Part shown: positions 22,785 to 57,715 of the stretch, in pieces
How the letters are laid out: each line of letters starts with the position of its first letter
Position numbering within the stretch: position 1 is the stretch's first letter
Assembly (NCBI GenBank): GCA_900469625.1
Contig: UBXV01000040.1
Coordinates: 1-64,000 of the forward strand
Length of the DNA: 64,000 bases
Direction: 5' to 3'
Source: Hyphomicrobiales bacterium
GTDB taxonomy: Bacteria; Pseudomonadota; Alphaproteobacteria; Rhizobiales; Rhizobiaceae
The notes under the pieces: model-generated
The model's input: the letters and a program-made list of their open reading frames with translations, nothing else
Told to the model about the DNA's origin: nothing
Databases searched by the model: none
Position numbers and translations under genes: made by a program

Positions 22785-24968
22785 ATGTTTCGCATTCCGA
22801 CCGCCGTTAAGGCGTTTTACGGTACGTGGGCATTTCGTGTAGTGAATCGCAGAGCCATCACAGATCGCCCGACGTTTCCGGCAACCGCCCAGGACGCTGC
22901 GGTGTCGCTCGCGCAACTCGGGGTCAGAAAACTCAAGTCGGCCGCCCGCGGCGCCCGCAAGAACGCCTTCCTTTACGCGATGGACCTGGCGTCGGCAGCC
23001 GTGGCGCTGCTCGTGGCGCTGTTCCTGCGCTACGGCCCCGGGGGGCTCACCGATCGTCCCGACACGATCCAGATTCTCGTCTGGTCGTCGGCTCAGTACC
23101 TTGCAGTCTGCGCGGCGATGTTCCCCCTTTCCGGCCTCTACAGCCGGAACTGGAAATACGGGTCGATCAGCGACCTCGTGATCATCATTCGCGCCGTGGT
23201 GCTGACCTCGCTGGTCCTGATCGCTCTCCTGTTCTTCTCGACACGCCTCACCGACATGCCGCGCACCGTCGTGCCGCTGCAGTCGCTGCTGTTGATGGCG
23301 TTTCTCGCGACATCGCGATTGAGCTTCCGCGCCGACGAATTTCTGCCCGTCAAGAACAAGCGGTCCGACAAGGATGACGCCGATGGCCATCGCCATCGCG
23401 TTCCCTTGCTTCTGGTCGGCGCCGGCAACGCTGCGGACCTTTATCTCAGAGCTCTGTTTCGCGATCCGTCAGCGCCCTACGTTCCGGTCGCCTGCCTGGA
23501 CCGCAACGAAACTCAGGTCGGGCTGATGCTGCATGGCGTGCCGATTGCCGGCAGGCTGCAGGATCTGGAGCAGGTGGTCGCCGAGCTCAGGGCCGTCGGC
23601 AAGCAACCGTGCCACATCGTCTTCACCGAACCGCTTTCGTCTTTCAACGACGTCGCTTCGGGAGAATTGCTGCAGGCCGCCGAGCGTCTCGGCATCGCGG
23701 TCTCGCGGCTGCAAAGCGGCACGGAGTTCAAGCAGACAAGCAACGACAATCCGTATGAACTGCGTTCGATCGAGATGACCGATCTGCTCGAACGGCCCCA
23801 GGCAACGCTGGACAAGGACGCAATCCGCCGCCTGGTCGCCGGCCGCCGGGTTCTCGTCACCGGTGCAGGGGGATCGATCGGCAGCGAACTCACGCGACAG
23901 ATCGCCGCCTGCGGCCCGGCCGAAATCGTTCTGGTCGACAATACGGAATTCAATCTCTACTCGATCGACCTCTGCCTGAAGGAAGAGTTTCCCGATGTCC
24001 GCCATTCGAACTGCCTGTGCAGCGTTCGGCGCAGCCAGCGGGTCAACGAGATTTTCGAAGCGCACCTGCCGGAACTGGTGTTCCACGCCGCAGCCCTGAA
24101 GCATGTGCCCATGGTGCAGATCAACCCGTGCGAAGGCGTTCTGACCAACGTCATCGGCACCATGAACGTCGCCAATGCCGCCAAGCGCTTCGGTGCGCTC
24201 GCCATGGTGCAGGTCTCCACCGACAAGGTGGTCAATTCCTCCAGCATCATGGGAATGACCAAACGGCTTGCCGAACTCTATTGTCAGGCGCTCGATCTGG
24301 ATGGCGTCACCAGCGGGCGGGGCCCACGCTTCATGACCGTCCGTTTCGGCAATGTGCTGGGGTCGAGCGGCTCATTGATCCCGCTCTTCAAGCACCAGCT
24401 TTCCAAGGGTGGCCCCTTGACGGTGACCGACCCGCGGATGACGCGGTTCTTCATGACCATCAGAGAAGCGGTCGAACTGACGCTGCAAGCCTCGGCATAC
24501 GGCTTCCAGAAGCAGATCGGCCAGGGCGAAATCTTCGTGCTCGACATGGGTGAACCCGTCAAGATCATCGACATCGCACGTCGCATGATCCGGCTCGCCG
24601 GTTTCGTCCCGGACAAGGACATCATGATCGAGATCGTCGGGGCAAGACCGGGCGAAAAACTGTTCGAGGAACTCTTCGATCCCACAGACAAGCGCATTGA
24701 GTCCGCCATTCCCGGCGTGCTTGGAGCCGTGCCCGATGCTGTGCCGTCAAGTGTGCTGAAGAGTGCCTTCAGCCGGATGCAGCGTGACGCCGAACGCTGC
24801 GACGAGGGGGCTGTTCTGGCCGCAATCTCGCAACTCCTGCCGAATGCGGAGATCCCCCAGAGCAACAACACGCGCCCCAGAACGGCTGGCCGGCGCACGG
24901 CCGGCGTCATTGCGCTCGGCAAGAAGACGACGGCGCGGCCGCAACCAAGCGGCCGGGCGCGGCAGTAG
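22785..24968 (+). CDS. Membrane nucleoside-diphosphate-sugar 4,6-dehydratase (CapD/FlaA1/PglF type)
   Basis: The protein has 727 residues with GAAGGAGGGGC before the ATG. Four hydrophobic segments lie within ~60-200, then a CoA-binding-like Rossmann domain (~205-340), then the extended-SDR catalytic domain with TGAGGSIG at 359-366 and STDKVVNSSSIMGMTKRLAE. In this family the usual YxxxK is MxxxK, as seen here. Relatives convert UDP-GlcNAc to UDP-4-keto-6-deoxy-HexNAc at the membrane. That product would feed the DegT aminotransferase encoded at 50079. The C-terminal ~90 residues are basic and low-complexity. It leads an operon with two glycosyltransferases. Confidence 0.88.
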   Translation: MFRIPTAVKAFYGTWAFRVVNRRAITDRPTFPATAQDAAVSLAQLGVRKLKSAARGARKNAFLYAMDLASAAVALLVALFLRYGPGGLTDRPDTIQILVWSSAQYLAVCAAMFPLSGLYSRNWKYGSISDLVIIIRAVVLTSLVLIALLFFSTRLTDMPRTVVPLQSLLLMAFLATSRLSFRADEFLPVKNKRSDKDDADGHRHRVPLLLVGAGNAADLYLRALFRDPSAPYVPVACLDRNETQVGLMLHGVPIAGRLQDLEQVVAELRAVGKQPCHIVFTEPLSSFNDVASGELLQAAERLGIAVSRLQSGTEFKQTSNDNPYELRSIEMTDLLERPQATLDKDAIRRLVAGRRVLVTGAGGSIGSELTRQIAACGPAEIVLVDNTEFNLYSIDLCLKEEFPDVRHSNCLCSVRRSQRVNEIFEAHLPELVFHAAALKHVPMVQINPCEGVLTNVIGTMNVANAAKRFGALAMVQVSTDKVVNSSSIMGMTKRLAELYCQALDLDGVTSGRGPRFMTVRFGNVLGSSGSLIPLFKHQLSKGGPLTVTDPRMTRFFMTIREAVELTLQASAYGFQKQIGQGEIFVLDMGEPVKIIDIARRMIRLAGFVPDKDIMIEIVGARPGEKLFEELFDPTDKRIESAIPGVLGAVPDAVPSSVLKSAFSRMQRDAERCDEGAVLAAISQLLPNAEIPQSNNTRPRTAGRRTAGVIALGKKTTARPQPSGRARQ

Positions 24969-24999
24969 CGTCAAGGGACGCAGGAGGAAGGAACCGGGC

Positions 25000-26199
25000 A
25001 TGGCAGGTATCCCCGTACTCCATTGCATCACGGGCCTGAATGTCGGCGGCGCCGAATACATGCTTGCACGGTTCGGCGCCAAGCTCACCCAAACGAATTA
25101 TGACCCCCGTGTACTGTCGCTGATGGCGCCGGGACCGATCGCCCGCGACATGCAGGCCGCCAATATCGCGGTCGAAACGCTCAACATGCACCAGTCGCGG
25201 CCGGGTCCGCGCGCCGTGGCGAGATTGCGCGCGATCATGCGGTCGTCGGCGCCAAGGCTGCTTCACGGCTGGATGTATCACGGCAACGTCGCGGCATCGA
25301 TCGGTTCGCGGCTCGCCGACCGACAGCCGGTCATCTGGAGCATCCACCACTCCATTGCCAATCTTGCTTCGGAGAAGCTGCTGACGCGCGCCGTGATCCG
25401 CATCAGCGCCGCGCTTTCCAGGCAGACCAGCGCAATTTCCTATTGCTCACGGGTATCCGCCGACCAGCATGAAGCGCTCGGTTTCGACCCGGCCAAGCGG
25501 CGCATCATCCCCAACGGCGTCGATTGCGATCAGTTCCGACCGGGCGCCGGCGCCCGACAATATCTCTGCGACGCGCTGCGCTTGCCGAGGGAGCGCCTGC
25601 TTGTCGGCAACATTGCCCGTGCCCATCCGATGAAGGATCACGAGACCTTCGTGCGCGCGATCGCCAGGCTTCGCGCCATGGGCCTCGATGCTCACGGCGT
25701 GCTGATCGGTGACGGCCATCAGAACGGCGTCGTGCAGCGCGTTGCGGCCGAACTCGGCATCACGCCGATGATCACTGTTTCACCCGCGCGCGCCGACATA
25801 GACAGGCTGATGCCGGGCCTCGACCTGTTCATGCTGTCTTCAGCATGGGGCGAAGCGTTTCCGCTGGTCGTCGCCGAGGCCATGGCGAGCGGCGTCCCGG
25901 CGATTGCGACGGATGTGGGCGATTGCGCCTGGCTTTTGGGTGACCGGCAGATGGTGGTCGAACCGGGAAACGTCGATGGCCTTGCCAAGCTCGCCGCCTC
26001 TTTGCTCTGCCTGCCGCAAGAGGCCCGCCGTCAGCTCGGCGAGCGCGCGCGCCGACGTGTGATCGAGCGGTTTTCGCTGAACGCCTATGTCGACAGCCAC
26101 CTCTCTCTTTACGAAGAAGTGCTCGAGCAGACCGTCCCCAAGCCCGCGCGACAGATAGGCTGGCAGGCTTCGGTCAGTGCGGCGCGGCGCATGTGGTAG
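25000..26199 (+). CDS. Glycosyltransferase family 4
   Basis: The protein has 399 residues from the ATG at 25000 (GGAAGGAACC upstream). It begins IPVLHCITGLNVGGAEYML, a GT4 donor/acceptor loop with the GGAE/GGxE signature. The C-terminal half holds the nucleotide-sugar site: SSAWGEAFPLVVAEAMASG carries the paired Glu of the E-x7-E motif. It is a retaining, GT-B-fold enzyme that acts at the inner membrane face on an undecaprenyl-linked oligosaccharide. The donor sugar cannot be told. It ends 5 bases before the next glycosyltransferase start. Confidence 0.9.
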   Translation: MAGIPVLHCITGLNVGGAEYMLARFGAKLTQTNYDPRVLSLMAPGPIARDMQAANIAVETLNMHQSRPGPRAVARLRAIMRSSAPRLLHGWMYHGNVAASIGSRLADRQPVIWSIHHSIANLASEKLLTRAVIRISAALSRQTSAISYCSRVSADQHEALGFDPAKRRIIPNGVDCDQFRPGAGARQYLCDALRLPRERLLVGNIARAHPMKDHETFVRAIARLRAMGLDAHGVLIGDGHQNGVVQRVAAELGITPMITVSPARADIDRLMPGLDLFMLSSAWGEAFPLVVAEAMASGVPAIATDVGDCAWLLGDRQMVVEPGNVDGLAKLAASLLCLPQEARRQLGERARRRVIERFSLNAYVDSHLSLYEEVLEQTVPKPARQIGWQASVSAARRMW

Positions 26200-31175: not shown

Positions 31176-32138
31176 TCAGGTGTGTTTTCTCTGCGCGCCC
31201 TTGTAATGATCGATGATTTCCTTTGCAGAAATTGGTTCCTTGGCCTTGCGACCGTAGAAATAGACGCCGCTGGCCCCATCCTCCGCGTAGCGCTCCGGAA
31301 TAATCGCATCGAGATACTGCGTCCAGAAAAAGGCGAGCTTTGCGAGTTTGCCGAGCAGCACCGACTGGAACACGCTACGAACGAGATAATCGACCGACCA
31401 CATGAACTGCGTTCCCGGCCCGCCATTGGCGCCGGACGAAATCGTCTCGAACCAGCGGAAGAGGTAGCGGTGGCCGCTTTCGCTGAAGCGGGTGAAATCG
31501 AACGCTCCCTCGTGCACCTGCTGCATGAAAGGCGTTTCGGCGTAAACGAGGCCCTCGTCGCGCAGCACGCGCCATATTTCCGAAACGACCTGCGCCGGCT
31601 GAAGCACGTGCTCGAGGACGGCCTGAATGACGACGGCATCGAAAAAGTCGTCCGGCAGCGGAATATGATGGGCATCCGCAATGAACTGAATGAGCGGAGA
31701 GGCATAGACGTCGAACGCATAGACGCCGATCTCCCGCTTTTCGTAGAGCGGCTCCATACCCTGCCCGATGCTGCCGCCTCCGATGACGAGAAGCTTGGCC
31801 GGACGCCCGGCTGTCGCCTGCAACTCGCCGAGCAAACGATTGACGTTGGTGACCGTGGACTTTTTCGTGGGCGAGAGCAGCTTCTTGATCATCCCGGTCA
31901 AGCGACCATAGTGCTTGCGTTCGACGGGGCTTGCCGCCTCCGTGTGCACGATGTCACTCTCGTTGAAGACGGATTCGGAGAAATCGATCATCACCGGCTT
32001 GCCCCCGACGACGCGATAAGATGTCTCGGTATCGTCAGGATGTACCGGTTCCAGCTTGTCGGATGAAACGCGCTCAAGCTTCGAACCGGTGCGCGGGCAG
32101 CGCAATGCATCCAGGCATTCTTGCTCGTTGACCAGCAT
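31176..32138 (-). CDS. SAM-dependent methyltransferase with N-terminal Trm112-like segment
   Basis: The protein has 320 residues. The N-terminal ~60 residues (LDALRCPRTGSKLERV; VVGGKPVMIDF) look like a Trm112-type zinc-ribbon domain, though most zinc ligands are missing. The class I methyltransferase core follows: KLLVIGGGSIGQGMEPL (~115-131, SAM binding), then DDFFDAVVIQAVLEHVLQP, and a YAETPFMQQVHEGAFDFTRF segment. Enzymes with this layout are often found among glycan genes, and a sugar O-methyl group or a methylated precursor is the likely product. It lies between cysD and the polymerase on the same strand, with 89 bases to the polymerase gene. Confidence 0.75.
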   Translation of the reverse strand: MLVNEQECLDALRCPRTGSKLERVSSDKLEPVHPDDTETSYRVVGGKPVMIDFSESVFNESDIVHTEAASPVERKHYGRLTGMIKKLLSPTKKSTVTNVNRLLGELQATAGRPAKLLVIGGGSIGQGMEPLYEKREIGVYAFDVYASPLIQFIADAHHIPLPDDFFDAVVIQAVLEHVLQPAQVVSEIWRVLRDEGLVYAETPFMQQVHEGAFDFTRFSESGHRYLFRWFETISSGANGGPGTQFMWSVDYLVRSVFQSVLLGKLAKLAFFWTQYLDAIIPERYAEDGASGVYFYGRKAKEPISAKEIIDHYKGAQRKHT

Positions 32139-37053: not shown

Positions 37054-38349
37054 TCAGAGTGCTGTCGTTCGTATTCCGGCGTTGCGACTGCGGCGTCCGG
37101 CCATGCGCCCGTAAAGCTGGCTGATGCCCTGAACATGCGTGTCGGTGCCGTATTTCGTCAGGGCGTTGGCACGGGCCGCCGAACTGATCCTGCGATGCTC
37201 GCCCGGCTTCATCAACAGCTTTTCAAGGGGATCGACGAACGCCTCCGGCCGTTCGGGCTCCACCAGAAACCCTGTGATACCATCGAGGATCGCCTCGACA
37301 TTGCCGCCATGACGCGTGGCGATCACCGGCGTTTCCAGAAGCATGGCTTCGATCAGCGTGCGTCCGAACGGCTCGTTGATTGCTGGCACGAGCAACGCGT
37401 CGAGTGCGCCTATGCAGGGTTCGACCGGTGCCCGGAACCCCATCATCTTGATACGATCTTCCACCCCGAGTTCCACGGCGCGCGCGAGCATGGCCGGCTC
37501 CGGGTTCGGGAGATTGGGCGACGGCTCTCCGAAAACGAGACCGACGAGGGGGAAATCCGGGAAGCGCTCAAGGAACGCGTGCACGGCCTCCACAAACCTG
37601 ACCGGCCGCTTCCTGTCGATCAAAGAACCGACATAACCGACGAAACGCGTCTCGCTGGCAAGGTCGAACTCGCGGATGAATTCGCTCCGACAGGCATCAC
37701 GGTCAGGCAACAGGGCTGGATGGTCGAAAGGGCTGTGCAGCACGCTTAGCTTGTGGGAGACAGGCAGGATCGGGCGCGTCGGCTGCACAAAGCGCGAGAC
37801 CGTGACGATGTGATTGGCGAGAACAGGCGCGACGGTGTTCACGCCGAAGGCATTGGGGTCGCCGCGGTGGTGCCATAGCAGCCGCGCCCCGGAAAGTCGG
37901 GCAGCAAGCGCCCAAGTGGCGTGTATCTGGCCGTCATTGGTATGAACGATGTCGACCCGGTTTTCGCGAAGAAACCGCCTCAGGCGCGCGGTGGTGATAA
38001 TGTAGTCCAGCGAGCGAGAGAGATTGCCGGCGACGCCGGCGGAGCGCCGTGGCGACATGACGGCAACCTCGGGCGCCACGACGAAATTCAGTCCGCGTTC
38101 GCGCAGATAGTTTTCCAGCGCCTCGCCGGTCCGATGCAGGACAATGAGAGGTTCGAACGTCGAGCGGTCAAGCGCGAGGATCAAGCCGACGGCGGAAATG
38201 TGGCTGCCGCCGACTTCATCTCCCACGAATGGATAGGCCACCACGAGGCGGTCACCGTCGCTCAGGATTTCTCCCCCCTGGATCGCGCCTCCGAGGCGCG
38301 GCGTCCGTTTCTTCGTCTTTTCGAATGTAATGCCGCTGTTCCTGATCAT
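37054..38349 (-). CDS. Glycosyltransferase family 4
   Basis: The C-terminal domain is clear: VGYVGSLIDRKRPVRFVEAV, then DALLVPAINEPFGRTLIEAML with the E-x7-E pair, then TPVIATRHGGNVEAI. The N-terminal domain begins LVVAYPFVGDEVGGSHIS. The reading frame extends far upstream to 38736, but the first ~129 codons show no family likeness and overlap a probable promoter region. I therefore place the start at the ATG at 38349 (431 residues). Its ribosome-binding site is poor, so the start is uncertain. It is co-oriented with the sulfotransferase 23 bases downstream. Confidence 0.82.
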   Translation of the reverse strand: MIRNSGITFEKTKKRTPRLGGAIQGGEILSDGDRLVVAYPFVGDEVGGSHISAVGLILALDRSTFEPLIVLHRTGEALENYLRERGLNFVVAPEVAVMSPRRSAGVAGNLSRSLDYIITTARLRRFLRENRVDIVHTNDGQIHATWALAARLSGARLLWHHRGDPNAFGVNTVAPVLANHIVTVSRFVQPTRPILPVSHKLSVLHSPFDHPALLPDRDACRSEFIREFDLASETRFVGYVGSLIDRKRPVRFVEAVHAFLERFPDFPLVGLVFGEPSPNLPNPEPAMLARAVELGVEDRIKMMGFRAPVEPCIGALDALLVPAINEPFGRTLIEAMLLETPVIATRHGGNVEAILDGITGFLVEPERPEAFVDPLEKLLMKPGEHRRISSAARANALTKYGTDTHVQGISQLYGRMAGRRSRNAGIRTTAL

Positions 38350-38622
38350 CCGCGTTTGCGTCCGGGAAAGACACTCTGCACCAATCTCTCTCAACGGCTG
38401 GAGCGGACCTTGGATCCCTCCGGGCATTCTGCATGTCATTTTCGCCGCCCGGAAACCTCGCATCACGACGGCCAGAAACGCGTTATGAGTATGACGCAAG
38501 AGAAATGGTAATCTATAATCATTTATGCGTAGTACATTTGGATAAAGATGAAATAAGTTAATCTTTACAGGTTGGTCTTTCATCACAATATCGCCAACCC
38601 GTCCGATTTTCGAGCAAATGTC

Positions 38623-38710
38623 TTTGACCTCAGGTCGAAGGGAAGAATATAGTCTCTCGGAAACGCGATCTCCGAGCCTTACTTCTTCTTTCGAGAGGCA
38701 CAATCGTATG
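38623..38710 (+). promoter_or_regulatory. Promoter/leader element, copy A (shared with 47224-47311)
   Basis: TTGACC (38624-38629), an 18-base spacer and TATAGT (38648-38653) form a sigma-70-like promoter. The following leader contains CTCGGA/TCCGAG, a 6-bp hairpin, and CTTTCGAGAGGC just before ATG at 38708. The whole 88 bases align without gaps to the region in front of the export gene at 47309, about 62 of 88 bases identical by hand count. It probably drives the MBOAT operon starting 300 bases downstream. Confidence 0.65.
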
Positions 38711-38950
38711 ATGGGATTAACGAGCCTATTGGGCACATTGAGCCCGACGGGAAAAATTTCCGTTTCCCGCGACGCGGTGTTTGTTGGTTGCTGGCCAGGC
38801 TCGGACGCCCGAAGACGGGCAGATGCGGAAATACCGTCGGCTGCGGGCGAAATGCGATCGGCTCATGCTCGATCGCTGGATTTCTCGGGCGGCAGCGACC
38901 CCCATCAGATTCATGCCGGATCCGTGCTGGAAAAAGACGCAGGCGGCTAG
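38708..38950 (+). CDS. Possible small leader ORF upstream of the MBOAT operon
   Basis: The 80-residue frame begins at the ATG that corresponds to the start of the export gene in copy B, with GAGAGGC as ribosome-binding sequence. It reads MMGLTSLLGTLSPTGKIS and then becomes charged and low in hydrophobic residues. It has no family likeness. It may be a translated leader, the remnant of a duplicated export gene start followed by unrelated DNA, or not translated at all. The next gene starts 63 bases downstream. Confidence 0.3.
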   Translation: MMGLTSLLGTLSPTGKISVSRDAVFVGCWPGSDARRRADAEIPSAAGEMRSAHARSLDFSGGSDPHQIHAGSVLEKDAGG

Positions 38951-39013
38951 TCCTGCCCGAAGCCCAGCCATCCTCACCCGGGGATTGCCAGGAGAGTAGT
39001 GGAGAGGTCCGAT

Positions 39014-40582
39014 ATGATCTTTATCGATCCGCTGTTTCTTTTTGTATTTTTGCCCGCAACACTTTTGGCTTTCTACCTCGCCACGTGGTTCTGGGGGCGA
39101 AACGCCGCCCTGCTCGTCATCTTTCTTGCTTCGCTGATATTCTACGTGCCCTATGGGATCTCGTCCGCCGTGCTGCTGCTCATGGCGCTTCTGGTCAACT
39201 TCAGCGTCGCCGTGGCACTTCTGCGGCTACCCGACGGCCATCCGCGCCGCGGCAGGTTGTATGGGCTGGGACAGTTCTACAACATCGCGTCACTGCTTTA
39301 CTTCAAGTACAAGATCGTTTCCGTGATCCTCGGCGGAGGCGGCAATCTCATGACCGATGTCGCCGGCGTTGCGATCCCGGCCGGCATCTCGTTCTACACC
39401 TTTCATCAGGCAGCCTTCCTCGCCGACGCCTATGGCCGCGAAAAGAGCGTGGTCGAATTTTTCCAGGACATCAGGTCGCTCAAGGCCGGCTTTTGGGCTT
39501 TCTGCCGCTATGGCGCATTTGTCAGCTTTTTCCCGCAGCTGATCATCGGACCGATCACGTATTTCCACGAGTTCCACCCGCAGGTCCGATCCCGGAAGTT
39601 CCTGCATTTCGATCCGGTCAACATTGCCGTCGGACTGGCATTCGTCTCGATCGGCATGTTCAAGAAGGTCGTCATTGCCGACAACATAGCGCCGACGGTC
39701 GACATCGTGTTCGGCGCTGCGCAGGTGGGGGCGGTCATGGACCCGGCGCACGCCTGGATCGGCGCGCTTTCCTACATGGCGCAACTCTATTTCGACTTCT
39801 CCGGTTACTCCGACATGGCGCTCGGCTTGGCCCGCATGTTCGGTCTGCGCTACCCAATAAACTTCTTCTCTCCCTTCAAGGCGACGGGCATCATCGATTA
39901 TTACCGCCGCTGGCACATGACGCTGACGCGGGTGATCGCCCGCTTTCTGTTCACGCCGCTGTCCATCGCCGGGACCCGCTACAGCCTTGAACGCCGGCTG
40001 CCTCCGGTGCCTGCGCAGATCGTCAGCTTGTGGATCCCGATCATGATCAACTTCCAGATCATCAGTCTCTGGCATGGCGCGACATGGACCTTTGTCGCGT
40101 TCGGCGTGATGCACGGCCTGTGGTACGCAAGCGAAGCGCAAATCCGGGCCAGCAAGACATACAGGACCATGCGCAAGACGGCTTCGCCATTCGTCCGGCT
40201 GTCGATCGAACGTGCCATCTTCTTCGTGCTGCTCTGCCTGAGCCTTTCCATGTTCCGCTCGGAGAGCGTCGGCGCGGCCCTTCATCTCTACGCGCAGATG
40301 TTCGGCGCGTCGCCCGGAGCTCCCTCCACGTTCGAAATGCGCGAGCCGGTGTTCATTCTGCTGTGCGCATTTTCGATCATCTACTTCATGCCGAACGGCG
40401 TCGAGCTTTTGCGTCGCTACCGTCCGGCCATCATGACCTACGAGAATGAGAGTTACGGTTTCACATTCCTGCGCAGCCTGTGGCGGCCTTCCTGGGCGTG
40501 GGCCATGTTCGCTGGCGTCCTGACGGTCTCGTCGCTGTTCTATGTCGGGCGACAACCGCCGTTTCTATATCAGGGGTTCTGA
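39014..40582 (+). CDS. MBOAT-family O-acyltransferase (AlgI-like)
   Basis: The protein has 522 residues from the ATG at 39014 (GGAGAGG upstream). About ten or more membrane segments are visible. The family signature SLWHGATWTFVAFGVMHG gives the conserved histidines at ~354 and ~367. Upstream of it lie YDFSGYSDMA-like residues (YFDFSGYSDMALGLARM), PINFFSPF and DYYRRWHMTLT, all typical of AlgI/DltB. These proteins carry an acyl group across the inner membrane and hand it to an exported polysaccharide. It is followed by an SGNH-like partner, an acyl carrier protein and an FkbH-like protein, suggesting that the donor is an acyl-ACP rather than acetyl-CoA. Confidence 0.92.
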   Translation: MIFIDPLFLFVFLPATLLAFYLATWFWGRNAALLVIFLASLIFYVPYGISSAVLLLMALLVNFSVAVALLRLPDGHPRRGRLYGLGQFYNIASLLYFKYKIVSVILGGGGNLMTDVAGVAIPAGISFYTFHQAAFLADAYGREKSVVEFFQDIRSLKAGFWAFCRYGAFVSFFPQLIIGPITYFHEFHPQVRSRKFLHFDPVNIAVGLAFVSIGMFKKVVIADNIAPTVDIVFGAAQVGAVMDPAHAWIGALSYMAQLYFDFSGYSDMALGLARMFGLRYPINFFSPFKATGIIDYYRRWHMTLTRVIARFLFTPLSIAGTRYSLERRLPPVPAQIVSLWIPIMINFQIISLWHGATWTFVAFGVMHGLWYASEAQIRASKTYRTMRKTASPFVRLSIERAIFFVLLCLSLSMFRSESVGAALHLYAQMFGASPGAPSTFEMREPVFILLCAFSIIYFMPNGVELLRRYRPAIMTYENESYGFTFLRSLWRPSWAWAMFAGVLTVSSLFYVGRQPPFLYQGF

Positions 40583-40584
40583 AC

Positions 40585-41790
40585 ATGATTGAAAAAGCGG
40601 TCACGATGTCGGGACAGCCACCCGGCGGGACGCGCGCCAGCCGATGGACAGGATCGCGCGCGGACGGCATATCGCGCAAAGGCCCCGGCAGGCCCCGCTT
40701 GCGGGCCGCATTTCCGATGCTGGCAACCTTTGCCTTTATCTGGATGATGTATCTGTCGGCGGTCGTCGCCGTCATGGCTACCGACCCCTACGACATTTAT
40801 CGCTGGGGATCGAGGGTCCAGTTCACCGTGAACGACGTGCCGCGTGACAATGTCATCCGCCTGATCGATGCCATCGCCAAGAAGACCGAGATCAACACGT
40901 TCCTCGTCGGCGGCTCGACGACAGCCATGTACTCCCCCGATGATATCGAAGCCGCGTTGGGTGGCAAGACGGTTGCCTACAATCTGAGCTACGGGGGCCC
41001 ACGTCCGATGGATCGCGACATCGTTCTCGATCAGCTGGCCGACAACTCCCACAGCAAGCGCATCATCATCACCTTCGACTGGATGTACATTCTTGCCCCT
41101 GAAGCCATGCGTCACGGCTTTCCGGAATTCCTCTACGATCACGAGGTCGCCGACGATATTCGCATGGTCGACCTCGACGCGCTTGTCCGCACGCTGCAAA
41201 TCATGACGGGGCAAGATGAGTACGATTCAAGAGACGGTGAGCGTTACGCAACCTTCGTCAAACAGCAGTACAGGTCATTCCAGAAGCCGGCACAAATGTC
41301 CAAGTTGCGCTCGCTCGTCGAGCAATACAGGTCTGTCATCGACACGCCGAGCGGCAGGTCATGCACAAGCTTCAATGCGATCGACGAGCAGCTCGTTCCC
41401 AGGATCAGGCGGTTTGCGGCGGCCGGCGTCGAGATCGACATCGTCATCCCCATTCTTTCCTACGCCAACTACTACTCGCGCATGAGCGATACCAGCCCGA
41501 CGCTGCTGGACGAAGTCTTGCTTTCGCGGCGGTGCCTGGTGGAGGCGGTCGGCGGTCTTCGCAACGTGCGCATATTCGCGTTCGATGACGATCCGGCAAC
41601 CGCGGGGGATCTTGCGAATTTTCGCGACCCCGGCCACGTCCACAATCCTGAAGTCCTGAAGACGACCCTGTCAGCGCTTTCGACGGGCACGCACATGCTC
41701 ACGCGCGCCAATGTCGGAGCCTATGAGCGCCGCATCCGGACGGAAGTGAAGAACTATCATGTCTACAACAGTTTCCTGCGCATTCATTGA
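40585..41790 (+). CDS. AlgJ/AlgX-like SGNH acyl-transfer partner
   Basis: The protein has 401 residues starting 2 bases after the MBOAT stop. A single N-terminal membrane segment (~residues 43-62, FPMLATFAFIWMMYLSAVV) anchors a periplasmic domain. LVGGSTTAMYSPDD places Ser111 in a GGST version of the SGNH nucleophile motif, and FRDPGHVHNPE supplies D348 and H351. This is the arrangement of AlgJ/PatB/DltD-type proteins that finish the transfer begun by an MBOAT protein. The last residues overlap no other gene. The transferred group and the acceptor are not known from sequence. Confidence 0.75.
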   Translation: MIEKAVTMSGQPPGGTRASRWTGSRADGISRKGPGRPRLRAAFPMLATFAFIWMMYLSAVVAVMATDPYDIYRWGSRVQFTVNDVPRDNVIRLIDAIAKKTEINTFLVGGSTTAMYSPDDIEAALGGKTVAYNLSYGGPRPMDRDIVLDQLADNSHSKRIIITFDWMYILAPEAMRHGFPEFLYDHEVADDIRMVDLDALVRTLQIMTGQDEYDSRDGERYATFVKQQYRSFQKPAQMSKLRSLVEQYRSVIDTPSGRSCTSFNAIDEQLVPRIRRFAAAGVEIDIVIPILSYANYYSRMSDTSPTLLDEVLLSRRCLVEAVGGLRNVRIFAFDDDPATAGDLANFRDPGHVHNPEVLKTTLSALSTGTHMLTRANVGAYERRIRTEVKNYHVYNSFLRIH

Positions 41791-41854
41791 GGGCACGCCT
41801 GTCGAGACGGCAGGCCACTGCGAGGCGAACACGTTCACCCCGGGAATGGAATCG

Positions 41855-42100
41855 ATGTCTATTCACAACGCCTATCTCACCCAAGTCGCCGATATCATGC
41901 GAGATCTTTTCGATGAACATACCGGGCCAATCACCGAAGCGACGACCGCCCGGGACATCGCCCAGTGGGACAGCCTCTCGCATGTCAGGTTCATGGCGCT
42001 CGTCGAGCAGGAATTCGGGATCCGCTTCACCACGGCCGAAGTCCAGACGTTCACGAATCTTGGAAGTTTGATCGACGCATTGATCAAACGGAAAAGTTGA
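41855..42100 (+). CDS. Acyl carrier protein
   Basis: The protein has 81 residues from the ATG at 41855; an in-frame ATG three codons earlier is less well placed. The phosphopantetheine-attachment motif is QWDSLSHVRF with Ser40, and the small acidic four-helix pattern is typical of carrier proteins. It has 30 bases to the FkbH-like gene and 64 bases from the SGNH gene. In FkbH systems a dedicated ACP receives glyceryl from 1,3-bisphosphoglycerate, and this ACP is the natural partner. Confidence 0.9.
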   Translation: MSIHNAYLTQVADIMRDLFDEHTGPITEATTARDIAQWDSLSHVRFMALVEQEFGIRFTTAEVQTFTNLGSLIDALIKRKS

Positions 42101-42130
42101 TCGGAACGGCATCACAGGTGGGACGCAGCG

Positions 42131-44014
42131 ATGACCGACTTTCCCTGGCGCAAGCCGCTCGACGACGACTGGGGCGCGCAGATCGCAGAGATCGAAGCCA
42201 CGCTCAGCGCGGGAGGCGTGCCTGACTACGCCCGCACCAAAGCGCTCGCCAACCAGCGCCTTGGCATGCGGGAACAATTGAAGGTGGAACGGCTGGCGGC
42301 CCGCATGCGCGGGCGAGGCCAACAGGGTTTTACGCCCTTCAAAATCGGTCTGCTCGGTAGTCGAACCTTGAGCTATCTCGCAGCACCGCTTGCAGCCGCG
42401 GGTCTGGCGCGCGGCCTGATGGTGGAAGTGCAGGAGGCTCCTTACAACAGCGTCGCGCGTTTTGCGTTCTCCGCCCCTACATTCTTTGAGGGCGCGCTCG
42501 ATGCCGTTCTCGTCGTTCTCGATGAAAGCGCTCTTGGGCGGGCGCCCCGCCTCCTCGATGCAGCAGCCGAGGACGAGGCTCTGAGGCAGGCAACGTCGCT
42601 GGTCGACGCCATTGCTGCCGCTGCCCGTTCCAGGAACGGGTGCCCGGTGATCGTCGCGACCCAACCGCCGCCCTTGCAGATTGCCGCGGCCGACATCGCG
42701 ACACCGGGCTCGGCGGCGCGGTTCAACCTGCGCGTCAACATGATGCTCGCCGACGGCGCTGCTGAGGGACGCTGGCTGCTGTGGGATCAGGCGGCACTTG
42801 CCGCTTGGGTGGGGCTCGAGCGCTGGCTCGATCCGATTTCCTTTCATGCGGCAAAGGTCCCGTTCAACGTTCAGATGTGCCCGCTTGCCGCCGACAACAT
42901 AGCCGGCATCCTCGCCGCGATGAAAGGCAAGGCGGCGCGAGCCCTCGTTCTCGATCTCGACAACACGTTGTGGGGCGGTGTCATCGGCGATGATGGGATC
43001 GGCGGGATCAGGCTCGGCCAGAACTCGCCGGAAGGCGAGGCTTTTGTCGCCTTCCAGAACTTCGTCTTGAGCCTGCGCGATCGCGGCGCCGTCCTGGCGG
43101 TCTGTTCGAAAAACGACGAGGCGGTCGCGCGCATGCCGTTTGCGAACCATCCCGACATGATCCTGCGCGAGCAGCACTTTGCCGTCTTCCAGGCCAACTG
43201 GAACGACAAGGCGACCAATATCAGTTCGATCGCCCAAGCGCTCAACCTGGGTCTGGAATCGCTTGCCTATGTCGACGACAATCCCGCCGAGCGCGAGCGC
43301 GTGCGACAGGAGCTGCCGCTCGTCGCCACGATCGAGGTTGGCGAAGATCCTTCCTTTTTCATCGAACGCATCGCACGATCCGGCGTATTCCAGCACCTGG
43401 CGCTGAACGCCGACGACCTGGCACGCGCCAGCAGCTACGAAAGTTTCGCCCGGGCGGCAGACATTCGCACGCAGCTCGGCAATTATGACGATTACCTGCG
43501 GTCGCTTGAAATGCAGATGACGATATCGCCGTTCGACGCTGTCGGGCGCCCACGCATCGTCCAACTGGTCAACAAGTCCAATCAGTTCAACCTGACCACC
43601 CGTCGCTACAACGAAGAAGACATCCGGAAAATGCAGGAAGGCGCGGATGTCTTCGGTTGGCAGGTTCGCCTCGACGACCGGTTCGCGCAGCACGGCATGA
43701 TCGGGGTCGTCATCGTTCGCGAGCGCGCCGCCGAATGGGAAATCGACAGTTGGCTCCAGTCGTGCCGCGTGCTGGAGCGCGGGGTCGAGCAGTGCATGAT
43801 GAACACGCTCTTCACCGCGGCCTCGGCGGCAAAGGTCGAGCGTGTGGTCGCGCGCTATATTCCAACGGACCGCAACCAGATGGTGGCGGATTTCTACACG
43901 CGGTTCGGTTTTGAAGTGACGAAGCGCCATGAGGACAGCTCGGTCGAGTTTCTTTGCCCGGTGCCCGCATACAAGCCAAAACCCGTGTTCATCGAAACGA
44001 ACTTGAACTTATAG
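42131..44014 (+). CDS. FkbH-like HAD-superfamily protein (probable glyceryl-ACP synthase)
   Basis: The protein has 627 residues. An N-terminal ~270-residue region typical of FkbH-like proteins is followed by the HAD-IIIC catalytic core with LDLDNTLWGGVIGDDG (D275, D277), then VCSKNDE, FQANWNDKATN and YVDDNPAERERVR. A GNAT-like C-terminal segment contains KSNQFNLTTRRY and RFAQHGMIGVVIV. FkbH enzymes dephosphorylate 1,3-bisphosphoglycerate and load D-glyceryl on a carrier protein for polyketides such as FK506. Close relatives occur in glycan loci. Beside an ACP and an MBOAT acyltransferase it suggests glyceroylation (or a derived acyl group) of the polysaccharide. Confidence 0.88.
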   Translation: MTDFPWRKPLDDDWGAQIAEIEATLSAGGVPDYARTKALANQRLGMREQLKVERLAARMRGRGQQGFTPFKIGLLGSRTLSYLAAPLAAAGLARGLMVEVQEAPYNSVARFAFSAPTFFEGALDAVLVVLDESALGRAPRLLDAAAEDEALRQATSLVDAIAAAARSRNGCPVIVATQPPPLQIAAADIATPGSAARFNLRVNMMLADGAAEGRWLLWDQAALAAWVGLERWLDPISFHAAKVPFNVQMCPLAADNIAGILAAMKGKAARALVLDLDNTLWGGVIGDDGIGGIRLGQNSPEGEAFVAFQNFVLSLRDRGAVLAVCSKNDEAVARMPFANHPDMILREQHFAVFQANWNDKATNISSIAQALNLGLESLAYVDDNPAERERVRQELPLVATIEVGEDPSFFIERIARSGVFQHLALNADDLARASSYESFARAADIRTQLGNYDDYLRSLEMQMTISPFDAVGRPRIVQLVNKSNQFNLTTRRYNEEDIRKMQEGADVFGWQVRLDDRFAQHGMIGVVIVRERAAEWEIDSWLQSCRVLERGVEQCMMNTLFTAASAAKVERVVARYIPTDRNQMVADFYTRFGFEVTKRHEDSSVEFLCPVPAYKPKPVFIETNLNL

Positions 44015-44225
44015 CGACGTCCCGCGTTCGTCTCGATCCGGCCGCGTGCTGGGGGAGATGGATCGGTCCCGGCGGTCGGCAAAGCATGGCTTATCTCGGG
44101 AATGTGGTGCGACGGTCAACGCACGGAATGTGGTATAGAGCGGTGACCTGGAGTAAAAACCGATGTCGTTCGTCCAGCCGTCTTGTCGTGGCGAACCGGT
44201 GTGGAGCCCTAGCAGGAGATTTCAC

Positions 44226-47016: not shown

Positions 47017-47223
47017 CCGAAAGCCCGAGCCGGGCACGCCGGTGAACAACAAAGCAGTCTGAGCAAGAGCAAGTTTCGACGACAGAGCCCTTGGTCTTCC
47101 ACCATCGAGACTTGGTATAACACTTCAGGAGTAATCCATCGGGGTAATAAAAAACGAAATAAGGCCCCCAACGGCATCGCGTATTATAATGTTACCGCTC
47201 CTTCTGCTTTTCAATCAAATTCC

Positions 47224-47311
47224 TTTGACGATTTGACGAATGGCAGAATATAGTCTGCCAGCAATACGATCTGCGAATGTTGTCTTTTCTTTCGAGGGGC
47301 GCAATTGCATG
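47224..47311 (+). promoter_or_regulatory. Promoter/leader element, copy B (shared with 38623-38710)
   Basis: TTGACG (47225-47230), an 18-base spacer and TATAGT (47249-47254) precede a ~50-base leader ending in CTTTCGAGGGGC and the ATG at 47309. Every element sits exactly 8,601 bases from its counterpart in copy A, with no gaps in the alignment. Confidence 0.65.
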
Positions 47312-48556
47312 ACGGCAATCATGAGTTCATTCGACAACCGCGGCCTGGCGAGACGGATATCAAAATATCTACTCGCAGCGATCCTGTGCCTTTTTCTCAG
47401 CCTGGCGGCCGGAGCAGGGATAACTGCGGAGTACCATCTGGCGACCGGCGACATCCTGACCTTCGACTTTCTCGACGATGCGGAACTCCCGGTGACGGTG
47501 ACGATCTCCAGCGACGGCGATGCCCAGTTTCCCTTGATCGGATCGGTCAAGATCGACGGGCTGACGGTCACGGCGGCGCTTGAAAAGCTGCGGTCTGAAT
47601 ATCGCTCGCGTGAAATCCTGATCGATCCCAAGCTTTCGCTCAACATTTCGACTTTCCGCCCGATCTTCGTTCTAGGCGAAGTGCGCAGCCCAGGATCCTT
47701 TCCTTTCTACAGTGGGCTGACCGTCGAGCAGGCCGTCGGTCTGGCGGGCGGCACCCAGATCGCTGCCGTCAACGCGTCCGACCGGATCGTTGCGCGGGCA
47801 CGATTGCGCGGCGAAATCGAGGGCTCTGACGCTCAGATCGTCTACGAGGCCGTTTATGCGGCGCGCTTGGTCGCCCAGCTGAAGAACAGCGCCAAGATCG
47901 ACCTGAAGGACGTGCCGGAAGTTGCCAGGGAGTTCGTCACGAACCTGCCCCTCAAAGGGGTTATCGAAGTGGAAGAAAAGATCCTGAACGCCGACCTTGC
48001 CGCCAACAAGTCACAGACCACCATACTGTCGGAAGGCATCGTGCAGGGCGAAGGCGCAATCGACATCCTTGAGCAGCTGGTGACGCAGCAAAAGGAAGTT
48101 GTCGACATCAACCAGAAGGATCTTGAGCGGGTGAGCTCGCTGCGCAAGCGCGAACTCAATACCGAAAGCGACCTGTCGCGCGCCAAAAACAACGCCTCGA
48201 ACGAAAAGTCGCAGCTGCTGGAGACCTTCGCGACGCTCGCCCGCTCGCGCCGGGAGCTGAGCGAAATGAAACTGCAGCTCGCCAAACTCAGCGCCGATCG
48301 TGAGAAGGAAATTCTGATGCAGCTGCAGGAGCGCGAGGTCGAGATCAAGAAACTGATCGCGACCCGGCAGGCCGCCCAGGAACAGATCCTGTTGATGGCG
48401 GCAGCGACGGCCGATGAGGCCAACAAGACCAATATCACCTACACCTACGAGATCCGCCGCAATCCCGTCGGCGGCAAGCCGGCGAGCCTCGAAGCTTCGA
48501 CACTGACGGAAATGCTGCCCGGCGACGTGCTGGTGGTGGCCATCACCGGCATGTAG
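47309..48556 (+). CDS. Polysaccharide export protein, ExoF/Wza-like with long coiled coil
   Basis: The protein has 415 residues from the ATG at 47309 (GAGGGGC upstream). The signal sequence is ISKYLLAAILCLFLSLAAGA. A poly_export domain (YHLATGDILTFDFLDDAELPV) and an SLBB domain (FVLGEVRSPGSFPFYSGLTV) are followed by a ~200-residue coiled coil (~220-380). This layout matches ExoF of Sinorhizobium rather than the shorter enteric Wza. It would form the outer-membrane/periplasmic part of the exporter with the ExoP-like protein. The ExoY-like initiating transferase follows 78 bases downstream. Confidence 0.88.
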   Translation: MTAIMSSFDNRGLARRISKYLLAAILCLFLSLAAGAGITAEYHLATGDILTFDFLDDAELPVTVTISSDGDAQFPLIGSVKIDGLTVTAALEKLRSEYRSREILIDPKLSLNISTFRPIFVLGEVRSPGSFPFYSGLTVEQAVGLAGGTQIAAVNASDRIVARARLRGEIEGSDAQIVYEAVYAARLVAQLKNSAKIDLKDVPEVAREFVTNLPLKGVIEVEEKILNADLAANKSQTTILSEGIVQGEGAIDILEQLVTQQKEVVDINQKDLERVSSLRKRELNTESDLSRAKNNASNEKSQLLETFATLARSRRELSEMKLQLAKLSADREKEILMQLQEREVEIKKLIATRQAAQEQILLMAAATADEANKTNITYTYEIRRNPVGGKPASLEASTLTEMLPGDVLVVAITGM

Positions 48557-52230: not shown

Positions 52231-53391
52231 ATGACAAAGAGCCCGGACGCCGGCGTCCAAGATCGTCAGGCCGAGCAGGTGATAAGGACGACGATCGTCG
52301 TGCCGGCACTGGGTGCGGGCGGCACCGAGCATGTCGTCAGCCTCGTGGCAAATCACTGGTCGCGGCAGGGCCATGAGATCACCATCATAACCTTCGAGCC
52401 GCCGGCATCCGAGGCCTATTATGCGATCGATCCGCATATCGATATCTGGCGGCTCGGCGGCGCCGGCAAGCCGCGATCCAAACTTCATTCCGGCCTGATG
52501 GCACTTCGCCGTATGCGCAGGCTCAGGGCCGCCCTTCGGGCGTCCCGCCCGACATTCATCCTCAGCTTCCTCACGCGGACCAACGTGCTCACGCTTTTGG
52601 CAGGCAAGCGGCTGGGCGTGCCGATCATCGTGTCCGAGCGCAACAATCCCGAATTGCAACCTTTTGGACGCGGCTGGCGGTGGCTGCAACAGCGTCTCTA
52701 CCCAACCGCCTTCGGCATGGTCACGATGACCCGTGGCGCACTCGAGACCTTTCCGCCAGCCATGCGCAAGCGCGGCTGGGTCGTACCCAACGCCTTCGAT
52801 CTGCCGCCGGGGTGGAACAACAGGCGAGAGGACACCGTTCTGACAGCCGTCGGACGCCTGACCCATCAAAAGGGGTTCGACCTGCTGCTTGAGGCTTTTG
52901 CGAAGATCGCGCCGGATCTGCCGGAATGGCATCTGCGTATCTGGGGGGAGGGCGAGGACAGGGCGAGCCTGGAAGCGCTCAGGGACCGGCTAGGCCTTTC
53001 CGACCGTGTCAGCATGCCTGGTGTCACCGGTCGCCCCGGAGAGTGGGTGGAGACCGCCGACGTCTTCGTCCTGTCGTCACGCTACGAGGGCTGGGGCATC
53101 GTGTTGCTGGAAGCGATGGCCGCCGGAATTCCCGCTGTGTCCTTTCGCTGCCAATGGGGGCCCGAGGAAATGATCAGCGATGGCGAAGACGGCATCCTCG
53201 TCGACAGGGAAGACGTCGATGCGCTCGCAGCCGCCCTTCGAAAAATACTCAAGGATCCGCTGCTTCGGTATCACCTTGGACGCAGCGCGGAACAGAGTGC
53301 CCGCCGGTTCACGCAGGAAAGGGTGCTGGCCGAGTGGGATGCGGTTGCTGCCGCTGCTCACGGCGCGTCGGCGAACCCAAGCAGCGGTTGA
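52231..53391 (+). CDS. Glycosyltransferase family 4
   Basis: The protein has 386 residues. VPALGAGGTEHVVSLVANHW is the acceptor-side start; VGRLTHQKGFDLLLEAF and SSRYEGWGIVLLEAMAAG give the GT-B donor domain with the E-x7-E pair. This is the PglJ/PglH/WcaL-like branch, which often adds N-acetylgalactosamine or a similar residue. The gene stands alone between the divergent sulfotransferase and the convergent glycine-rich gene. Confidence 0.9.
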   Translation: MTKSPDAGVQDRQAEQVIRTTIVVPALGAGGTEHVVSLVANHWSRQGHEITIITFEPPASEAYYAIDPHIDIWRLGGAGKPRSKLHSGLMALRRMRRLRAALRASRPTFILSFLTRTNVLTLLAGKRLGVPIIVSERNNPELQPFGRGWRWLQQRLYPTAFGMVTMTRGALETFPPAMRKRGWVVPNAFDLPPGWNNRREDTVLTAVGRLTHQKGFDLLLEAFAKIAPDLPEWHLRIWGEGEDRASLEALRDRLGLSDRVSMPGVTGRPGEWVETADVFVLSSRYEGWGIVLLEAMAAGIPAVSFRCQWGPEEMISDGEDGILVDREDVDALAAALRKILKDPLLRYHLGRSAEQSARRFTQERVLAEWDAVAAAAHGASANPSSG

Positions 53392-53557
53392 GACCGGCCG
53401 TGTATCCTGAGGAACGCAGGTCGCCCGACAGTAAATAGAGCGGGCGCAAATCCGGCCATTCCGTTTTTATCGGAAACGTTTGCGTCGAGACCGATAGTAT
53501 CGCGTCCCGTCTTCGGGAAGGCGAGGGGCACTTTGCCCCCCGCTGGTTTGAAAGGTG

Positions 53558-53579
53558 TGGCCTGCTTCCCGGCAGGCCA
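53558..53579 (-). terminator. Hairpin downstream of the glycine-rich gene
   Basis: TGGCCTGC and GCAGGCCA pair perfectly around a 6-base loop, just beyond the stop of the minus-strand gene. The following minus-strand bases include CCTTTC only, so the U-tract is weak. It may stop transcripts from both convergent genes. Confidence 0.5.
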
Positions 53580-53586
53580 GGCCTCT

Positions 53587-54168
53587 TTAATTCGCGATTG
53601 GCATGCTTCCGGTTTCGCTGCTGCCGCCGCCGCTCTCACCGGAATTGCTACCGGTGTCGCCTGCACCGCCAGTTGCACCGCCGGCATCTCCGGTACCACC
53701 ACCAGCACCGCCGGCATCACCCGTGCCGCTACCAGTGCCACCGCCATCTCCGGTACCACCACCGCTGCCGGCGCCATCTCCGGCACCACCGCCACCAGCA
53801 CCACCATCCCCGGTGCCGCCACCATCGCCCGTGCCGCCACCAGTACCACCGCCATCGCCCGCGCCACCACCGGTGCCACCGCCATCGCCCGTGCCACCGC
53901 CGCTAGCGCCGCCATCGCCCGTACCGCCGCCAGTGCCGCCGATGTCTCCAGCACCGCCGCTCTTGCCGCCGGTCTCGCCAGCACCGCCACTCTTGCCGCC
54001 GGTCTCTCCAGCACCGCCGCTCTTCCCACCGGTCTCGCCAGCACCGCCGCTCTTGCCGCCCGTTTCACTGGCGCCGCCGCTTTTGCTACCGGTGTCTGCG
54101 AATGAAGGTGCGGCATAACCAACCGCCACGATTGCGCAGACAGCAACTGTTTGAAGATACTTTTTCAT
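53587..54168 (-). CDS. Secreted glycine-rich tandem-repeat protein
   Basis: The protein has 193 residues from the ATG at 54168 (GGGAGAA upstream). A signal peptide (MKKYLQTVAVCAIVAVGYA, cleaved near SFA-DT) precedes a mature part of almost only Gly, Thr, Ser, Ala, Asp, Glu and a few Lys. The first half repeats a 10-residue unit like KSGGAGETGG about four times; the second half repeats GGGTGDGG-type units with many Asp. There are no Cys, aromatic or long hydrophobic residues after the signal. It is probably an extended, acidic, possibly calcium-binding extracellular protein. A role in the polysaccharide matrix is suggested by position only. Tandem DNA repeats make its length prone to change. 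Confidence 0.7.
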   Translation of the reverse strand: MKKYLQTVAVCAIVAVGYAAPSFADTGSKSGGASETGGKSGGAGETGGKSGGAGETGGKSGGAGETGGKSGGAGDIGGTGGGTGDGGASGGGTGDGGGTGGGAGDGGGTGGGTGDGGGTGDGGAGGGGAGDGAGSGGGTGDGGGTGSGTGDAGGAGGGTGDAGGATGGAGDTGSNSGESGGGSSETGSMPIAN

Positions 54169-54908
54169 GCCATTCTCCCAATATGGTTTGAGTACATGCC
54201 CAGCCGCCGAGCAATTACCCACTCCTCATCAACGAGGTTAGGCGCGGCCTACCGTGACCTCTACTAAACAGAGGTTGCGCGCACCGCTGACGGTGCCGAT
54301 TGCCGGCCCGAGTGCTCACGGGAACTTGATCGGCGAAGAAAGATAAACCTTTCGGTTGCCACGGCTTTTTCAGCCGGCGACAAACTGCGGAGCGCAGGCT
54401 GCGCGCAGAGTATATTTTTTCTCTTTTTCTAATTAAGCACTCAATAATTGAAAGATTGTGCTCTGCAACGAGCGCCCACTGGAACCATGACGTGTGCAAT
54501 CCGGACGAGGATCGCGGCTGATTCCCGACATGCAAGGCGTTGATCGGCTGCGCGGTCCACGTCGCACCACACGCGCGTCGCGGAAAAGCCACGCCCCGAT
54601 CCCGATCCGGACAACCTGCCCGCGTGACCGACATCCTGAAGGTCGCAGCCAGAGACTACGTTACAACCGATCAAGCATCGACACGTCGCGATTGCTGATG
54701 CGGCCCCGTTTCAGGTCGACGTTTACACCCGACCGTGCTCGCGCATCGGGTTTGATTTCGGATCAGAACTTCTTTTTTACAGACAGCCGGTATCTTGTCA
54801 GCCGGCCCTGGTTGACGTACTCGAAACCCATAAGAACCAGGCTGATGAACGATGCAGACTGGTGGCGCTGGGTTTCGGCGCCAGACACCTCAGGACGTTG
54901 GGATTGCG
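54169..54908. other. 740-base intergenic region upstream of acnB
   Basis: No convincing gene is present. An AT-rich part at ~54405-54470 (with the imperfect repeat CTCAATAATTGAAAG) may hold the promoter of the glycine-rich gene on the minus strand. A rightward promoter for acnB must lie between here and 54908, but I could not identify it with confidence. Confidence 0.45.
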
Positions 54909-57698
<2,790 letters not shown>

Positions 57699-57715
57699 GC
57701 TTCGGCCTCATGACA

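Follow-up and report, generated by a model that had tools for sequence, protein, structure and literature searches.

A putative glycerate-charged, Dlt-like acylation cassette within a sulfated polysaccharide cluster of an Ensifer relative

Results

A four-gene cassette in a Hyphomicrobiales bacterium, a relative of Ensifer, probably encodes a Dlt-like relay for envelope acylation that is charged with glycerate, its acceptor here most likely being the sulfated polysaccharide of the surrounding gene cluster. The genes, for an MBOAT acyltransferase, an SGNH-fold protein, a stand-alone acyl carrier protein (ACP) and an FkbH protein, are consecutive and all on the plus strand at 39014–44014 of a 64,000-nucleotide stretch (contig UBXV01000040.1, assembly GCA_900469625.1), the whole of which we call the window. 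Genome-wide, MBOAT and FkbH are each present once, as neighbours in this cassette. The set is real and recurrent, and it is apparently undescribed.

39014–40582, plus strand: MBOAT acyltransferase, 522 residues, ATG at 39014 (PF03062, DltB-like, residues)
40585–41790, plus strand: SGNH-fold protein, 401 residues, one N-terminal transmembrane stretch (alignment, AlphaFold2 model, Foldseek)
41855–42100, plus strand: stand-alone ACP, 81 residues, Ser40 in WDSL (PF00550, 8.1e-6, above cut-off)
42131–44014, plus strand: FkbH protein, 627 residues (TIGR01686, structure model, residues)

The encoded proteins

Open reading frames and family scans recover, in these positions, the four consecutive genes that an earlier note on this DNA had described, and three of its assignments hold: the MBOAT (PF03062, E = 5.9e-15) and the stand-alone ACP with a DSL serine (here within WDSL) exceed the cut-offs of their families, and the FkbH-like HAD protein lies well above that of TIGR01686 (299.6 bits versus 146.65). 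Conservation was read from 80 loci, the best 80 of 539 FkbH relatives in one-per-species genomes, chosen for likeness to the window FkbH and searched with profiles made from four cassettes; in 47 of them an MBOAT stands no more than 3 kb from FkbH, 41 times on the same strand.

The sole NCBIfam match of the MBOAT is DltB (TIGR04091), at 115.9 bits against a cut-off of 375. Its best PDB match is also a DltB (6bug, E = 2.7e-19), the other solved-structure match of note being 8jem, again DltB. His354, within a WHG motif, is kept in all 47 related cassette MBOATs. The C-terminus reads PPFLYQGF, and its FLYQGF (Y519), a feature beyond those in the earlier note, is the FXYXXF acyl-shuttle motif placed at the very end of the chain. 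A strict F.Y..F occurs in 40 of the 47 relatives near FkbH; the motif is non-discriminating, being present in 11 of 14 MBOATs with FkbH and 28 of 28 without. MBOAT sequence alone was dropped as a cassette marker because generic MBOATs are nearly as similar to ours as cassette MBOATs are.

The SGNH protein has no Pfam or NCBIfam match at E ≤ 1, Pfam DltD included; one of its relatives scores 12.6 bits on Pfam DltD (cut-off 22.7). Its key residues are Ser111 (in GGST), Asn133, Asp348 and His351, with the serine preceding DxxH, a DltD-type order. In a 26-row alignment of SGNH proteins from beside such cassettes, mostly 11–16% identical to the window copy, only G109, S111, D348 and H351 are invariant, and the N133 column is at least 90% conserved; the rows were preselected for GxS and D..H, leaving their shared columns and the Asn133 column as the independent part of this result. 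A heuristic gave candidates in 34 of the 47 MBOAT loci, with coordinates prepared for 26, and the alignment combines 22 of these (L063, L087, L089 and L116 left out) with the window protein, L020, L028 and L029. Searching the PDB with the AlphaFold2 model, Foldseek places DltD entries (3bma, 6o93) in all of ranks 1–4, at low TM-scores of 0.29–0.35. The available text of PMC10302187 describes AlgJ, AlgX and WssI as circularly permuted, with His before Ser; the histidine of the window protein follows its serine, so it is not AlgJ-like. The catalytic order (Ser111 before D348/H351) together with the Foldseek ranking thus rules out the AlgJ-like assignment of the earlier note, whose GGST serine and D348/H351 are present and invariant across the 26 rows. 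The gene is annotated as a TonB-dependent receptor in Sinorhizobium meliloti records (L020:21576–22805 and others), apparently a mislabelling.

FkbH is built from an N-terminal domain, an HAD phosphatase domain (D275, D277) and a C-terminal GNAT-like domain with Cys545, the SCR cysteine, which we take to be the holder of the glyceryl group en route to the ACP. All 80 relatives keep D275, D277 and C545. The model is confident (predicted local distance difference test, pLDDT, 88.7), and Foldseek aligns its N-terminal and HAD parts with 3slr and its C-terminal part with GNAT acetyltransferases. The ACP serine is equally constant, kept in 73 of the 73 ACPs found near the relatives' FkbH. The FkbH counterpart on pSymB of S. 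meliloti 1021 (L019, about 23159–25029) is split into two frames, and is in one piece in the record of strain 2011. ACP–FkbH pairs stand without an MBOAT at five loci (L032, L033, L034, L035 and L021); behind the Paroceanicella pair come a methyltransferase and a VOC protein.

Association across genomes

Among the 80 relatives, an ACP accompanies FkbH in 73 and both ACP and MBOAT are found in 45. In an unselected sample of 337 genomes of the class, at least 15 of 34 FkbH loci over cut-off (our own included) lie no farther than 7 kb from an MBOAT match, and any MBOAT match occurs in just 110 of the 337. This pairing used 38 of 39 FkbH rows, the omitted row being a further piece of a gene already counted, and the 31 MBOAT rows of genomes with FkbH. 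From the same sample we compared 14 fetched regions with FkbH and MBOAT (13 of the 14 non-own pairs, G283 left out, plus G393, in which FkbH is fragmentary and scores under the cut-off) with 26 hand-picked MBOAT-only regions. All 14 regions with FkbH have an ACP, and none of the 26 without it does (probability about 4e-11, hand-calculated with rows taken as independent; because the rows are related, the figure is strong but not exact). By this comparison the ACP tracks FkbH and not MBOATs in general. Chance neighbourhood of FkbH and MBOAT is ruled out by the recurrence (47 of 80; at least 15 of 34; the ACP contrast).

The same comparison bears on a plainer explanation, ordinary acetyl-CoA-fed O-acetylation by the MBOAT–SGNH pair beside an unrelated FkbH–ACP pair. 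Described MBOAT–SGNH systems mostly use acyl-CoA, according to the accessible part of PMC12148441, and the shuttle motif is identical in all 28 MBOATs that have no FkbH nearby; against this, the ACP is confined to the FkbH-bearing regions and the set recurs in many orders and phyla, and we regard the explanation as improbable. FkbH, ACP and MBOAT occur in nine gene orders across 53 loci besides the window: the association is wide, without the fixed order whose conservation the earlier note had proposed to look for.

In a quick tree of 89 MBOATs the FkbH partners, drawn from seven phyla, cluster together, with 6 label changes versus 24 after shuffling (0 of 500 shuffles as low), and the window MBOAT falls within a 40-row clade solely of FkbH partners (support 90). 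Pairwise distances over 54 loci correlate most for FkbH–ACP (0.62), then FkbH–MBOAT (0.34) and MBOAT–ACP (0.32), none of 2,000 permutations reaching any of these values; because species kinship is left in, this is weak evidence of co-evolution. Within our own genus, FkbH and MBOAT occur together in 3 of 16 genomes; a sample of 199 genomes of the order has FkbH in 15 and a DltB-like MBOAT in 64.

A copied promoter in an exchangeable slot

The cassette sits inside a polysaccharide cluster, in a region whose content differs between related clusters:

20439–53391: sulfated Wzx/Wzy polysaccharide cluster around the cassette (Pfam; counterpart on S. meliloti pSymB)
38293–44147: slot with differing content between related clusters (blastn break points 38292 and 44148)
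38599–38714, plus strand: cassette promoter region, a diverged copy of the wza-type promoter region (blastn, hexamers)
47200–47315, plus strand: wza-type export-gene promoter region (wza ATG at 47309), either the source of the cassette promoter or a sister to it

Pfam identifies cysD, cysN-C, two sulfotransferases, Wzc, Wza, Wzx, a Wzy-like protein and a sugar transferase in the cluster, along with a PIG-L deacetylase, an aminotransferase, glycosyltransferases and a pectate-lyase-like protein; a methyltransferase lies at 31176–32138. Polyketide synthase, non-ribosomal peptide synthetase, FabH-like and malonate-type genes were not recognised among the scanned cluster proteins. That the FkbH–ACP pair makes a small secreted metabolite of tetronate or methoxymalonate type would fit the literature found, in whose available text characterised FkbH proteins act in polyketide or peptide pathways; with no such genes recognised in the cluster, we consider it very unlikely.

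The two promoter regions are 70.7% identical over 116 bases (blastn, E = 1.25e-9), a duplication that goes beyond the earlier note. Promoter-like hexamers stand in register, TTGACC-18-TATAGT at 38624–38653 and TTGACG-18-TATAGT at 47225–47254. DNA upstream of wza in Ensifer canadensis matches as well (72% over 156 bases). Scored with a 33-position consensus of both window sites, E. canadensis wza reaches 28 and S. meliloti exoF3 25, with 21 for the next best site in the window and 19–20 in three shuffles. The exoF3 match starts at pSymB 813529 and therefore spans a PhaR-type site predicted at 813544–813564, for which Table 3 of PMC12542648, in the portion available, marks binding as NE. The S. 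meliloti locus tag SMb20840, listed in PhaR module 2 in the same portion of that paper, is likely a cassette gene by position, a reading on which nothing here rests. An ATG at 38708 occupies the expected wza-start position after the copied promoter and opens a short frame (38708–38950) without visible Wza likeness; the MBOAT start is 300 bases past it.

On plasmid pT173d of E. canadensis the cluster is present on both sides of the slot, and the four cassette genes are unmatched in 42 kb. The slot there, about 11 kb, holds a sensor kinase, a regulator, a GDSL-type esterase, a carbamoyltransferase and a glycosyltransferase. Close copies of the four genes are found on S. meliloti pSymB (79, 63, 69 and about 67% identity), near capsule export genes. 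The S. meliloti counterpart of the surrounding cluster is described in the available text of PMC5498481 as specifying a polysaccharide that is Clr-controlled, probably sulfated and so far unknown.

Three further regions of the window lie outside the cassette. Positions 54790–57700 (approximate) are nearly 90% identical to aconitate hydratase 2 genes of Shinella and Rhizobium plasmids and are better conserved than the neighbouring polysaccharide cluster. At 4010–7802 are two adjacent long frames of lower third-position G+C, the first presumably beginning like a SIR2-type NAD-binding protein and perhaps a defence gene. A frame at 53358–54146 has many RAAVLARP-like repeat units and is perhaps antisense to a repetitive protein.

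Acceptor and acyl group

The promoter copy, the position within the cluster and the swapped slot favour the sulfated polysaccharide as the putative acceptor in this genome; that the cassette stands under the cluster's own export promoter speaks most strongly for its serving this polysaccharide. Several findings weigh against the reading as a whole or in part. The S. meliloti cassette has no promoter-copy site (best score 22, within a gene) and is separated by about 150 kb from the counterpart of the sulfated-polysaccharide cluster, and two Ensifer cassettes, with the SGNH gene first, stand alone outside polysaccharide clusters. Homologues of the window glycosyltransferases or Wz proteins occur in 5 of 61 other FkbH+MBOAT regions, as against 4 of 33 FkbH-only and 0 of 26 MBOAT-only regions, a count made with short flanks and covering homologues of the window cluster. 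Among the 80 FkbH relatives, 33 have no MBOAT nearby, and in our own order the pair showed in 1 of 199 genomes, the present one (contigs compared by eye). On the protein side, one S. meliloti MBOAT lacks a histidine matching H301. The SGNH model has moderate confidence (pLDDT 75.7), its DltD matches have template-modelling scores of 0.29–0.37 and a root-mean-square deviation above 10, and platelet-activating factor acetylhydrolases rank directly below them.

By the location data, the cassette is clearly not tied to such polysaccharide clusters. They also lend weight to a version in which the same relay serves another acceptor (capsule, lipopolysaccharide, periplasmic glucan or lipid) and the cluster position is merely convenient: related cassettes are mostly away from recognisable polysaccharide genes, the S. 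meliloti copy is near capsule export genes and far from the sulfated cluster, and the Ensifer copies are solitary. The copying of the cassette promoter from the cluster's own wza gene and the different modification genes in the E. canadensis slot argue the other way, and we hold another acceptor to be a real but minority possibility.

A further variant keeps the relay and changes its cargo, the three-carbon unit on FkbH being altered before transfer or FkbH using another acyl phosphate. In 17 of the 61 FkbH+MBOAT loci a methyltransferase related to a six-member panel stands no more than 3.5 kb from FkbH, and in 5 a short-chain dehydrogenase/reductase (SDR) does; these 61 include the same DNA twice (L074/L123, L083/L121) and near copies (L132/L133). 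The corresponding numbers among the 33 FkbH loci without MBOAT are 4 and 3. Pfam confirmed six of the methyltransferases and three SDRs, one of the three SDR loci being without MBOAT. Such neighbours resemble the tailoring enzymes of polyketide pathways, where glyceryl-ACP is oxidised and methylated (available text of PMC7489565), a likeness that also speaks for a glyceryl-charged relay. The window cassette has no tailoring gene, and therefore unmodified D-glyceryl is predicted. The methyltransferase at 31176–32138 might be cited in favour of a modified group; it is conserved in E. canadensis, which is without the cassette, and therefore probably serves the polysaccharide. A different acyl group here seems unlikely to us.

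Discussion

The nearest known logic is that of the Gram-positive Dlt system (DltA, DltB, DltC, DltD and DltX). FkbH would dephosphorylate 1,3-bisphosphoglycerate and place D-glyceryl on the ACP phosphopantetheine, as expected of its family and of its HAD aspartate pair and Cys545. By comparison with PatA and DltB/DltX, the MBOAT would take glyceryl from the ACP at the cytoplasmic face and move it to Tyr519 of its own periplasm-facing FLYQGF tail. The DltD-type SGNH protein would receive it from the tail on Ser111 and esterify a hydroxyl of an exported glycan. FkbH would thus take DltA's place, with the DltX shuttle fused to the MBOAT. We infer every chemical step of this relay, and likewise the identity of the acceptor.

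The earlier note had an FkbH-charged ACP feeding the MBOAT–SGNH pair, unlike acetyl-CoA-fed alginate acetylation. The association, the 14 of 14 against 0 of 26 and the kept active sites agree with this; its Alg framework does not stand, since the SGNH protein is not AlgJ-like and Dlt, rather than Alg, is therefore the closest parallel. Shared with Dlt are a carrier-bound donor, a DltB-like MBOAT, a DltD-type SGNH protein and the FXYXXF tyrosine shuttle. Where Dlt loads its carrier with the adenylating DltA, the cassette has FkbH, and no DltA is in the operon; where Dlt has a separate DltX, the motif is fused to the MBOAT, and a DltX microprotein, sought in the window only, has no room there, the MBOAT–SGNH gap being 2 bases. 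The host is moreover Gram-negative, the predicted donor is glyceryl and the MBOAT scores far under the DltB cut-off. By sequence, then, the cassette is Dlt-like in its predicted working, yet no member of Dlt: DltA and DltX are absent and scores fall below the DltB and DltD cut-offs.

In O-acetylation of the PatA/PatB and AlgI/AlgJ/AlgX type, a C-terminal FXYXXF of the MBOAT likewise hands the acyl group to a periplasmic SGNH protein. The donor there is acetyl-CoA, without a carrier protein (PMC12148441, in the part available), whereas the cassette has an ACP; and AlgJ, AlgX and WssI are permuted (PMC10302187, likewise), unlike our SGNH protein. The window set combines an MBOAT-fused shuttle motif with a carrier protein. 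In the FK520 methoxymalonate, tetronate and suomilide pathways, FkbH also works with a stand-alone or fused carrier, 1,3-bisphosphoglycerate being the proposed source. Glyceryl enters a small molecule there, whereas the cassette partner is a membrane acyltransferase and genes of such pathways were not seen; in the available text of the suomilide work, FkbH and MBOAT act separately. Gellan gum offers a precedent for a glycerate ester on an exported polysaccharide (Kuo et al. 1986, cited in PMC4432689, available in part), reported there as L-glycerate, whereas D is the form expected from FkbH. A literature search, its coverage mostly outside subscription journals, found no named transferase for gellan glycerate and, among the papers listed, no FkbH joined to an MBOAT–SGNH envelope system.

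Taken together, we lean towards a modular form of envelope acylation spread across several phyla, in which a glycolytic acyl phosphate would be the donor, FkbH would charge a dedicated ACP, and the MBOAT tail and a DltD-type protein would move glyceryl, or an O-methylated, oxidised or reduced form, onto exported glycans. This would be a second carrier-protein-fed MBOAT–SGNH branch besides Dlt, here a plug-in under the sulfated polysaccharide's own promoter. If it works as read, it would bring a carrier protein and a fused shuttle together in Gram-negative bacteria and beyond, tie surface chemistry to glycolysis and offer candidate enzymes for esterifying exported polysaccharides with glycerate. 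Because the homologous S. meliloti polysaccharide is considered a signal in the control of legume infection (available text of PMC5498481), glycerate decoration could also bear on symbiosis.

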